From Chloroflexota bacterium (lineage in GTDB: Bacteria; Chloroflexota; Dehalococcoidia; JACVQG01; JAHKAY01), in NCBI GenBank assembly GCA_018825785.1, contig JAHKAY010000006.1:1-42331 (forward strand): 42,331 nucleotides of DNA, written 5' to 3'. The notes under the pieces were generated by a model. It had not been told where the DNA came from. It saw only the letters and a program-made list of their open reading frames with translations, and ran no database searches. Shown here one piece after another: positions 1 to 6,332 of the stretch. A program made the translations under genes and the position numbers. How positions within the stretch are numbered: the stretch's first letter is position 1; every line of letters starts with the position of its first letter.

Positions 1-175
1 CGCACACGAGCAAGCAGGAGACCGAACCCGGAATTGTGCTCCCTTCGCTGAGGCTCCTGCCCGGTTGACAGAGTGCTTGTTCAAGGAATTCTCCAAAATC
101 TCCACCGGGAACACTGGAATAGAGAAGGTCCGTTACTTCCCGCCTAAGCAGGGCAACATAGTGGGAGAAAGCCAC
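1..175 (-). CDS. Partial ORF at left edge, possibly polyprenyl-synthetase-like
   Basis: An open frame begins at a GTG (175-173) and runs off the left edge for 58 codons. It lies just downstream of, and on the same strand as, the small peptide gene at 204-431. The visible protein starts MAFSHYVALLRREVTDLL and later contains GRSLSEGSTIPGSVSCLLVC. Its helical start followed by a conserved-looking segment recalls the N-terminus of polyprenyl synthetase-like proteins, where a GK-x-LRP-type segment precedes a hydrophobic helix. That resemblance is weak and by eye. The ribosome site is poor, so translation may be coupled to the upstream gene. If it is a prenyl synthetase, the pair would look like a ComQ/ComX arrangement. 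It could also be any modifying enzyme or a chance ORF. Confidence 0.35.
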   Translation of the reverse strand, partial: MAFSHYVALLRREVTDLLYSSVPGGDFGEFLEQALCQPGRSLSEGSTIPGSVSCLLVC

Positions 176-203
176 CTTGCCGCCACGGCCAGTCCTGGGG
201 TCA

Positions 204-431
204 CTAGGGCGCTATTACCAACCAGCTCCCAGCAGGGATGGGCTCGGCTTCGAGGGGCCCTCCCTTTGCTCCCCATCCCAGCTTCCTCTGAGCAGCTAGC
301 ACCGCATCCCCTTCGTCCTTATTCAAGCCAAACTCAGAAAACGCCGCATCAGGAGAAGAAGCAAACCGCTCTTTAAACTTGTCATCGGCGAACACTTTGC
401 TGATAAACGCCTGGACCAAATGAAGTCTCAT
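204..431 (-). CDS. Small precursor-like peptide (75 aa)
   Basis: This 75-residue ORF has a strong ribosome site, GAGGAGGTG, just upstream of its ATG, which makes it a credible gene despite its size. Residues 1-50 form an acidic, helical leader-like part (FISKVFADDKFKERFASSPD, then AFSEFGLNKDEGDAVL). This recalls the nitrile-hydratase-like leader peptides of RiPP precursors, with their F-x5-dP-x-al-x5-Gl pattern. The C-terminal 25 residues are different: rich in Gly and Pro with two Trp (LGWGAKGG and AGSWLVIAP), as expected of a core region. A partial ORF follows 28 nt downstream on the same strand. ComX-type prenylated pheromone precursors also have a C-terminal Trp. There is no Cys, so lanthionine chemistry is excluded. 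Function is inferred only. Confidence 0.6.
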   Translation of the reverse strand: MRLHLVQAFISKVFADDKFKERFASSPDAAFSEFGLNKDEGDAVLAAQRKLGWGAKGGPLEAEPIPAGSWLVIAP

Positions 432-827
432 CTTACACCTCCTCAGTGCGACACTCTAGTTTGCCCACATGGGGAACCTTTTGTCAAGCTCTATATCGCA
501 GTCCGACCACTACCTGCATTCCGCCGACAGCAACACAGACCCAGTTGGGCCATGAACTGGGCAAGGTCACTGGGGTAAGGGAACTGGGGCCCTACAAGCC
601 CGAGCCCCTGAATCTCGCGGGAGCAGGCGTAGAAGCTTGGGGCGGGGGGAGGGCCGAAAGTCCCATGAGCCTCCCCCCTTTTTGGGGATGGGTGTTGCAC
701 CAAGAACCCTGCATAATGAATGTCGGTGATGCCAGGGCGGTGTCAGGGAGTATGTTGTGCCTAGAAGAGGTCGCCTTGGGGACGCCTTGACTCATCACGA
801 GTCGGGTCTTGGGTGCCGAAAGGGAAT
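432..827. other. Gene-poor stretch upstream of the peptide gene
   Basis: I see no convincing gene here. Short open frames on both strands have low-complexity, Pro/Cys-rich translations and no ribosome sites. A TTGACA match on the minus strand (487-482) lies about 50 nt before the peptide gene. Its best -10 match, TAGAGT, is 23 nt away, too far for a normal promoter, so promoter assignment is uncertain. Confidence 0.4.
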
Positions 828-1188: not shown

Positions 1189-3623
1189 CTATCTAAGGTC
1201 TACCCGCCTGATGCGGTTGTTGCTCCTTTCAGCGATGTAGAGGTTCCCCGAGCCAACGGCGAGACCACAAGGAAAGTTGAGCTGTGCCGCCGCGGCCGGG
1301 CCCCCATCGCCCACGAAGCCCCCCACCCCGGTCCCGGCCAGGCTGGTGATGGTCCCTGTTGCCAAGTCCACCCTGCGGACGCGGTTGTTCTGGCTGTCGC
1401 CAATGTAGAGGTTCGCCGAGTCAACGGCGAGGCCAATGGGAGTGTTGAGCTGTGCTGCCGTAGCCGGGCCCCCATCGCCCGCAAAGCCCCCCGCCCCGGT
1501 CCCGGCAAAGGTTGTCATGGTCCCTGTCGCCAGGTCCACCCTGCGGATGCGGTTGCCGATGCCTTCGCTGATGTAAAGGTTAGCCGAGTCAAGGGTGAGG
1601 GCATTGGGATTGTTGAGCTGCGCCGCGGTCGCCGGACCCCCATCGCCCCCGAAGCCCGCGGTCCCGCTCCCGGCAAAGATGGAGATGGTCCCCGTCGCCA
1701 GGTCCACCCTGCGGACGCGGTTGTTGCCGCTGTCGGCGATGTAGAGGTTCCCCGAGCCAAGGGCGAGGCCTATGGGATTGTTGAGCTGTGCCGCCGTCGC
1801 TGGCCCGCCATCGCCCCCGGAGCCTACCGCCCCGTTCCCGGCTAAGGTCGTGATGGTCCCCGTCGCCAAGTCCACCCTGCGGACGCGGTTGTTGCCGCTG
1901 TCGGCGATGTAAAGGTTCCCCGAGCCAAGGGCAGCGCTTCTAGGACCGCTGAGTTGTGCCGCTGTCGCCGGGCCGCCATCGCCCCCGAAACCCGAGGTCC
2001 CGTTGCCGGCAACGGTGGTGATGGTCCCCGCCGCCAGGTTGACCCTGCGGACGCGGTTGTTGGCTGTGTCGGCGATGTAGAGGTTCCCCGAGTCAACGGC
2101 GACGCCATAAGGACCGCTGAGCTGCGCTTCCATAGCCGGGCCGCCATCGCCTGTGGGGACGGTGGTGCCCCCGGCAAAGGTGGTGATGGTGCCCGTCGCC
2201 AGGTCGACCCTGCGGACGCGGTTGCCGGCGAACTCGGTTATGTAGAGGTACCCCGAGCCAGAGGCGACGCCAACAGGAAGGGTGAGCTGCGCTGCCGTAG
2301 CCGGGCCACCATCGCCCGCGAAGCCCCCCACCCCGGTCCCGGCAAAGGTGGTGATGGTGCCCGTCGCCAGGTTGACCATGCGGACACGGTGGTTGCCCCT
2401 GTCGCCGATGTAGAGGCTCACCGAGTCAACGGCGAGGCTTCTAGGATCGTTGAGCTGCGCTGCCGTCGCCGGCCCGCCATCGCCCCCGGAGCCTACCGCT
2501 CGTTTCCGGCAAAGGTGGTGATGGTCCTCGCCGACAGGTTGACCCTGCGGATACGGTTGTTGCCACTGTCGGCGACATAGAGGTTCCCCGAGTCAAGGGC
2601 GAGGCCTCTGGGGCTGCTTAGCTGCGCTGCCGTGGCCGGGCCGCCATCGCCCCCGTGGCCCCCCTCCCCTGTCCCAGCGAAGGTGGTGATGGTCCCCGTC
2701 GCCAGGTCCACCCTGCGGATACGGTTGTTGCCACTGTCGGCGACATAGAGGTTCCCCGAGTCAACGGCGAGGCCTCTGGGGCTGCTTAGCTGCGCTGCCG
2801 TGGCCGGGCCGCCATCGCCCCCGTAGCCCCCCTCCCCTGTCCCGGCGAAGGTGGTGATGGTCCCCGTCGCAAGGTCCACCCTGCGGACGCGGTTGTTGCC
2901 GCCGTCGGCGATGTAGAGGCTACCAGAGTCAAGGGCGAGGCCCACCGGACCGCTGAGCTGTGCCGCCGTCGCCGGGCCGCCATCGCCAATGGGGAGAGGG
3001 CTGCCCGCCACCGTAACAATATTGCCCGCGATGAAGGCTGCGGGTGTTGTGGCGGGAGACTGGGCAGGTGTTGTAGCGGAAGGCTGGGTGGATGTTGCGG
3101 TGGGAGACTGGGGTGCAGGCTTGGGTCGAGGCGATGACCATAGGTAGACGCCCACGACCATCAGGGCGATGACTACCGACCCTATCCCGGCTAGCCTGAG
3201 CCACCTATATCGTCCAGGGCCCCTTTCACGGATCGGTTCCACAGTGGCAACAGGTTCTACCCGGGCTCCTACGATTGGCTTCGTTGGCTCTACACCGCCT
3301 CCCCGCTCAGGCTGCGGGGTCTCTCCAGCAGGAGCACCTAACAGGGCCTCACGGATGTGGGGCCGCTTGGAAATGATCCACTCTTGGACTGCTGGCTTCT
3401 GAGTTCTCACCAGTTCAGCCGGAATGCCTGGCTCGCCGATCGCCTCCTGAATTATCTTGGAGATGGTGACCCTATTCAGGTATATTCCCCGAAGCTCTAG
3501 CTTCTGCCGAACTCGGGCGATGCTGTGGCCGCCTGCCACCAGCTCCCACACTGCCGCCCTTTCCTCGTTCGTGACATCGGTCCTAACCCAGTCTGGAGCA
3601 AACTTGCGGCGAAACTGTCTCAT
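1189..3623 (-). pseudogene. HTH-membrane-NHL-propeller protein, split by a 1-nt frameshift
   Basis: Two ORFs (3623-2493, 376 aa, and 2421-1189, 410 aa) are one gene. The first ends at a TAG (2495-2493) inside a repeat, and the next frame continues the same repeat at once. Compared with the equivalent repeat near 1825-1840, about one base is missing at 2499-2503. The intact product would be about 811 aa. Residues 18-62 form a recombinase-style helix-turn-helix (GGHSIARVRQKLELRG). Residues 144-163 are a membrane helix preceded by Arg residues, so the N-terminus should be cytoplasmic. A Pro/Thr linker follows, then eleven 56-residue NHL-type repeats (GDGGPATAAQL, NLYIADSGNNRVRRVDL, TGTITTFAG). 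This suggests a one-component membrane regulator with an outside propeller, or a surface protein. The frameshift may be real, programmed or an assembly error. The last repeat stops abruptly after RRVDLR. Confidence 0.8.
1195..3000 (-). repeat. Eleven tandem 168-bp coding repeats (NHL-type units)
   Basis: A unit of about 168 bp, 56 codons, recurs in register; for example, the segment encoding RRVDLATGT recurs at about 1531, 1699 and 1867. One unit near 2150 is a codon shorter. Conservation at DNA level is high, so unequal recombination and assembly collapse are both plausible. Confidence 0.85.
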
Positions 3624-5567: not shown

Positions 5568-6332
5568 TCATCCTTCACCGCTGTCGGGGGCATCACGAGC
5601 CGGAAGCTGACCACACAGCTTCCGATACCACTCCCGATGCTCACGCCCGCTGACTTTGCGGTACCTGGCGGTGGTGTTGAAGGATGCGTGCCCCAAGTGC
5701 TCTTGCAGAAGCCTCAGCCCGTCGCCAGAATCATCCACCTTCACTGCGTGGACGGCAAAGGCGTCCCTGAGGCGGTGGGGGCTCGCGCCAAGAGCCCTGC
5801 CCGTCGCCGGGTTCACCATGGGAGGCAGTCCCGCCCTACGGGCAGCCTCCCTCACGACCCGCCACGCCTGGCCGCGACCTATCCCGAAAAATAGGTTCCT
5901 CCCGTTCTTGGTTGCCTGATCGCCCTGCCCGACATAGTCCCGGAGCATGTTCAGGGTCTCCTTGTCGATGGGGAGGGTCCTCATTCTGCGGTGCTTCTGT
6001 TCTCTTGCCTGGGCCTCTTCCACCCTGGCACCACACTTAGGGCAGAAAGCGTGGGTTCTCCCCAGCCCGGCGTTACATCGGGGGCAGGAAAGCCTTACTC
6101 GGGCCTTGAGGTGCTCTATGATGACGGTACCCTGGACAAAGTTGATATCTTCCACCTTGAGGGCAAGGGCCTCCGAGATACGGCACCCGAGACGTGAAAG
6201 GACGCGGATGAGTAGCCGGTCCCTGAGAGTGCAGGCAGCAGCTATCAGTTTTTCAACCTCTTCCGGGTCTAGGTAAGCCTTGGGTTCCGGGATGGGACAC
6301 CTAGCCTTCACGGTGGATGCCCTCCCGGGCAT
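5568..6332 (-). CDS. Tyrosine recombinase with inserted zinc ribbon
   Basis: This 254-aa protein is the catalytic domain of a phage-integrase-type recombinase. The expected residues are visible: Arg51 (GCRISEAL), His186-x-x-Arg189 (SPHRLRD), His215 (EHLGHAS) and the nucleophile Tyr224 (TTARY). HRRMRTLPID near 114-123 fits the beta-hairpin region. Between Arg51 and that hairpin there is an inserted zinc ribbon, CPRC (83-86) and CPKC (97-100). The usual N-terminal core-binding domain is nearly absent, since only about 20 residues precede the catalytic domain. No in-frame N-terminal part was found upstream. It may act as a mobile-element integrase or a remnant. It converges on the exported-protein pair and is divergent from the HTH gene at 6690. 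Confidence 0.82.
   Translation of the reverse strand: MPGRASTVKARCPIPEPKAYLDPEEVEKLIAAACTLRDRLLIRVLSRLGCRISEALALKVEDINFVQGTVIIEHLKARVRLSCPRCNAGLGRTHAFCPKCGARVEEAQAREQKHRRMRTLPIDKETLNMLRDYVGQGDQATKNGRNLFFGIGRGQAWRVVREAARRAGLPPMVNPATGRALGASPHRLRDAFAVHAVKVDDSGDGLRLLQEHLGHASFNTTARYRKVSGREHREWYRKLCGQLPARDAPDSGEG

Follow-up and report, generated by a model that had tools for sequence, protein, structure and literature searches.

A candidate prenylated-tryptophan signalling operon with a ComP-like receptor and a predicted c-di-GMP output in Dehalococcoidia

The window analysed here, a stretch of 42,331 nucleotides, begins with the first base of contig C6 (134,223 bases) in an assembly of 1.59 Mb and 60 contigs, and at this very end lie two minus-strand ORFs which probably form one operon with the genes at the start of another contig, C59. 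The features of this locus are as follows, where L033 denotes the locus on C59.

204..431, minus strand: precursor peptide ORF of 75 aa (MRLHLVQAF...AGSWLVIAP), first gene of the operon
222..224, minus strand: codon of the invariant Trp70 (W70), predicted prenylation site, from the alignments and the tails of relatives
438..443, minus strand: Shine-Dalgarno sequence AGGAGG, 6 nt 5' of the peptide ATG, from the sequence
2..175, minus strand: first 58 codons of a predicted ComQ-type tryptophan prenyltransferase, interrupted where the contig ends, from BLASTP to the enzyme of the relative G042
Contig C59 from base 1 (L033 2-790), plus strand: remainder of the predicted prenyltransferase, from a search of the same genome with the G042 enzyme
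L033 (contig C59) 3176-4117, plus strand: class II terpene-cyclase-like gene, 314 aa, from matches to drimenol synthase and AstC

A previous reading made from the sequence only had pointed to the 75-aa ORF with a strong ribosome site, and in fact AGGAGG is found 5' of its ATG; moreover, of 11 homologous peptides examined, most have a purine-rich site 5' of the start codon. The partner ORF follows after 28 nt as that reading described, opens with a GTG at 175, and is incomplete in the window because the window begins at C6 base 1. Between close pairs of the peptide genes dN/dS is 0.15-0.29, and a search with a profile built from four peptides gave near full-length matches in 13 of the 393 genomes of the class (Dehalococcoidia). 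Judged from these comparisons, the peptide ORF is not a chance one, because the family recurs in these 13 genomes and in each of them precedes a ComQ-like gene; the conservation in relatives on which the earlier proposal hinged is thus present. A promoter and terminator scan found none.

As for the type of the peptide, residues from about 1 to 51 constitute a helical leader of the NHLP clan (Os1348/LigA-like) and the C-terminal tail bears W70. A structure model predicts four helices for residues 3-51, and the best Foldseek neighbours are SonA-type RiPP precursors, but with E about 1. The window peptide alone falls below the cut-offs of the NCBIfam families that it matches, TIGR04509 (E 8e-6) and NF038399 (E 6e-5), its score of 23.1 bits standing against a curated cut-off of 40 bits for NF038399; the latter profile matches all 15 of the 15 peptide family members with a best E of 5.6e-12, which bears out the NHLP-type leader previously recognised by eye. 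In all peptides a Trp is located within the last six residues, being the very last residue in G042 only, and around this invariant Trp the tails vary, for example GPMGGWF, EAILYWL, GTLGWWA, DPWWAPEP, IDWSAPEP and AGSWLVIAP. Homology with ComX was considered as well and is ruled out by a profile-profile comparison of 15 Chloroflexota peptides with 10 Bacillus ComX (hhalign probability 0.8%, E 0.07). The peptide is accordingly of the PalX (NHLP) type and not a sequence relative of ComX; with this one correction, the earlier suggestion of a locus resembling the ComX/ComQ type or another modified-peptide type is upheld, as the enzyme groups with ComQ and the Trp is invariant. In the phylum, NHLP relatives that share only the leader are frequent, and most of them do not have the tail. 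Small NHLP/LigA-like peptides without a terminal Trp occur at L072 7303-7560, L074 6305-6568 and L075 7066-7278; they were excluded from the family, as the stretches examined hold no ComQ-like gene, and may be other RiPP or unknown Chloroflexota peptides.

The closest peptide matches in the first search of relatives, G042 and G043, each lie directly before a gene of polyprenyl-synthetase fold. The 58-aa fragment alone has no family match in a direct Pfam/NCBIfam scan; the N-terminus of the G042 enzyme matches it at 43% over 37 aa (BLASTP, E 2e-7), and the same enzyme as query in the window genome (G000) finds C59:17-775 with E 4.6e-36, where the 5' end is open at the contig start. With a 2-base overlap the ends of C6 and C59 read in frame and without a stop as SVSCLLVC-EAISGRYDQAG, and at the same place the relative G380 has LVACEAISGKYEHAL (shorter stretch VLVACEAISGKY) with CEAISG conserved. 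We infer from the ends and the frame that C6 adjoins C59, the join giving a ComQ-type enzyme of about 320 aa, so that extending the left ORF, the check proposed before, leads in frame into a protein of PF00348 fold. Alternatively the contigs would not be joined, the window carrying a truncated operon remnant and C59 the end of another copy, as could be argued from the assembly gap and from a shortened ComQ-like gene that exists in the relative G188. However, the genome has exactly one peptide, one 5' enzyme piece and one 3' enzyme piece, and the pieces meet in frame precisely so as to yield the conserved CEAISG junction of G380, whereby separate copies become scarcely credible.

The part of the enzyme on C59 matches Pfam PF00348, the polyprenyl-synthetase fold, with E 1.4e-26, and together with its grouping with Bacillus ComQ this upholds the polyprenyl-synthetase-like character formerly assigned to the partner ORF. 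The first Asp-rich motif is DTFDEIEDDD in G000 and DxFDDxEDxD in most relatives as well as in Bacillus ComQ, where canonical synthases have HDDxxD; as second motif, every complete ComQ-like enzyme has QxxND, as does Bacillus ComQ, in contrast to QxxDD in canonical synthases. For the conserved Gln that shortly precedes this motif, a role in Trp recognition has been proposed (PMC13290415). In a tree of 47 rows (19 Chloroflexota enzymes, 9 Bacillus ComQ and 19 canonical synthases, most of these from the same genomes), the ComQ-like enzymes and Bacillus ComQ split from the canonical isoprenyl-diphosphate synthases with support of 100/99. Given its long branch (2.1), the exact position of Bacillus ComQ is uncertain and attraction is possible, though less likely because the ComQ-like enzymes and Bacillus ComQ have common motifs. 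By fold, motifs and tree the enzyme appears to be a ComQ-type tryptophan prenyltransferase, with prenyl transfer as its predicted activity. The PF00348 fold, together with general synthase profiles matching with E down to 1e-42, would also suit an ordinary isoprenyl-diphosphate synthase with an unrelated small ORF beside it; but each genome searched has at least one other, better-scoring synthase, the expected IPP-binding motif is degenerate (QxxND) as in ComQ, and the peptide is kept with the enzyme across the class and beyond, all of which leaves such a synthase very improbable.

Behind the enzyme follows the gene of a 787-aa receptor, which starts at L033:787 and overlaps the enzyme stop at 790 by 4 nt. 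The G000 receptor has a GAF domain (PF13492, E 3.7e-7) and an HD-GYP domain (PF13487, E 2.3e-39); its N-terminus stays under the Pfam PDZ threshold, and the G042 homologue matches PF00595 with E 8.7e-6. An AlphaFold model (pLDDT 79.6) predicts a leading helix, PDZ-like strands at 49-119 and a bundle of membrane-length helices. Over their first 400 residues, ten Chloroflexota receptors aligned with eight Bacillus ComP at an hhalign probability of 99.7% (E 3e-25, 332 columns); Foldseek with the receptor N-terminus gave just GPCR-like membrane helices with E above 0.003. The HD-GYP motifs in G000 are HDLGK and HHEWYDGAGYP, and the HD and HHExx[DN]GxGYP motifs are intact in G000, G042, G022 and G696, so by motif the domain is a predicted c-di-GMP phosphodiesterase. 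The outputs vary across the loci: the receptors end in HD-GYP in G000, G042 and G022, in HD-GYP with GGDEF in G696, in a HisKA kinase in G380, G218, G011, L077, L085 and G467, and in a PAS-kinase-receiver hybrid in G228, G199, G262, G210, G084, G188 and L084. Three changes are needed when the c-di-GMP or kinase label is mapped on the enzyme tree, and therefore the receptor outputs have probably been exchanged more than once.

No response-regulator gene lies directly after the receptor on C59. Instead the terpene-cyclase-like gene begins 26 nt after the receptor gene, its 314-aa product matching the class II terpene-cyclase region in drimenol synthase (3e-14) and AstC (2e-11), with DIDS aligned under DLDTT of drimenol synthase; elsewhere in the 393-genome class sample it is without a homologue. 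Next comes a convergent GGDEF (diguanylate cyclase) gene (PF00990, E 4.5e-48). This one, beside the operon, is one of only two GGDEF proteins in the window genome, which further has four HD-GYP-type matches and one protein with two PilZ domains.

The arrangement is not confined to this genome. Directly 5' of a ComQ-like gene the peptide occurs in 20 Chloroflexota loci, namely the 13 from the class profile search, four from genome contigs and three in other classes, and in the stretches examined, wherever the contig continues, the peptide, the ComQ-like gene and the PDZ/TM receptor follow one another in this order on one strand. Among the other classes, G696, G467 and G577 have peptide and enzyme, with the receptor also in G696 and G467. 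Searched against GTDB contigs, the ComQ profile found 11 Chloroflexi/Dehalococcoidia loci, followed by 19 from Bacillus or Metabacillus, in most of which a ComX-like ORF and a ComP-like gene come immediately behind the match; in a plasmid collection the ComQ-like matches are weak, and in Lysinibacillus and Stenotrophomonas only. In G188 (L071 5725-6369, minus strand) the ComQ-like gene ends after 214 codons, about 1.1 kb before the receptor; G188 differs in this from its near relative G084, and its copy appears decayed or interrupted.

Taken together, the operon very probably makes a prenylated-Trp signal along with a ComP-like membrane receptor whose output would be c-di-GMP. In such a route the ComQ/PalQ-type enzyme, of trans-isoprenyl-synthase fold, would bind the NHLP-clan leader and, guided by it, move a prenyl group (C10-C20) onto the Trp in the C-terminal region, by analogy with PalQ-PalX and ComQ-ComX; the modified tail would then be cleaved off and exported via host factors. 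No dedicated protease or exporter is seen. The mature lipopeptide would be sensed outside the cell by the ComP-like receptor (membrane helix, PDZ, multi-helix membrane domain and GAF), presumably at its PDZ/membrane part. Because the G000 receptor ends in an intact HD-GYP domain in place of a histidine kinase, signal binding would shift c-di-GMP directly and without phosphotransfer, in a direction that the neighbouring GGDEF cyclase possibly opposes. A different possibility is that the operon makes a prenylated lipopeptide of antimicrobial or surface-active kind, an RiPP, the membrane protein serving self-sensing, immunity or stress sensing: antimicrobial activity is possible for prenylated-Trp peptides that PalQ makes (PMC13290415), and NHLP leaders serve mostly RiPPs. 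Yet the receptor adjoins the enzyme in every locus with a continuing contig, its N-terminus is ComP-like, its output domains are regulatory only, and the operons inspected carry no transporter or immunity gene, which together make a lipopeptide product of this sort rather improbable as compared with the signal.

Among known systems, PalP-PalX-PalQ of Paenibacillus alvei (PMC10853753) is alike in its NHLP-type precursor with C-terminal Trp, its trans-IDS-like prenyltransferase and an adjacent receptor-like kinase gene; there, PalQ prenylates the C-terminal Trp of PalX in vitro, and the cluster has a histidine kinase (PMC10853753). The Pal system, taken here by its published description of PalX, PalQ and PalP, differs in that it belongs to a Firmicute, has a histidine kinase only and needs the Trp strictly last, extensions blocking PalQ, whereas the Chloroflexota loci have 0-5 residues after the Trp and swapped outputs including HD-GYP. 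In fact PalQ is inactive once residues trail the Trp (PMC13290415), and up to five residues follow it in the Chloroflexota peptides; therefore the enzymes here should act like ComQ, tolerating an internal Trp. ComQXPA of Bacillus (PMC4008528) resembles the present loci in the ComQ-type enzyme (one tree group, same motifs), the ComP-type PDZ/TM input, the Trp near the peptide end and the adjacent same-strand genes. In contrast to it, the Chloroflexota leader is not ComX-homologous, the order is peptide-enzyme-receptor and not enzyme-peptide-receptor, the three-gene unit includes no comA-like regulator, the output is HisKA, hybrid or HD-GYP, and the loci lie outside Firmicutes.

The ChrPC-type prenyltransferase-cyclase fusions (PMC13290415) likewise link a trans-IDS-like Trp prenyltransferase with a class II terpene-cyclase-like domain, but in G000 the two are separate genes of one operon, the cyclase-like gene is found in one genome only, and a receptor is present. 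The cyclase-like protein of G000 might cyclise a peptide-bound prenyl group as in ChrPC. The fuller scheme, in which the Trp-bound prenyl would be cyclised to a terpenoid by this protein and the receptor would degrade or make c-di-GMP, as a one-protein route in Chloroflexota, is tentative and somewhat unlikely.

A census in 2014 had comQXPA-like loci nowhere outside Firmicutes (PMC4008528), and a survey in 2022 assigned to Chloroflexi a kinase-regulator pair only (PMC8895600). In the openly accessible literature we found comparable ComQ/PalQ systems reported from Firmicutes only, with histidine kinases, and no report of ComX, ComQ and HD-GYP together. The chemistry is thus of a known type, and what is new is the phylum, the c-di-GMP output logic and the receptor part, which the sequence-only reading had not seen. 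If the proposed signalling is true, prenylated-Trp peptide signalling would be wider and perhaps older, a system in which the receptor input is conserved while the outputs, direct c-di-GMP control among them, can be exchanged; the ComQXPA and NHLP/Pal systems would be linked via one enzyme family and one receptor family; and a concrete, testable cell-cell signal would be at hand for Dehalococcoidia and other mostly uncultured Chloroflexota.

Elsewhere in the window, two adjoining minus-strand ORFs at 1189-2421 and 2493-3623 carry NHL-type repeats (GDGGPATAAQL...LYIADSGNNRVRRVDLATGTI) and are perhaps one split gene, and the minus-strand ORF at 5568-6332, judged by eye, is tyrosine recombinase/integrase-like.
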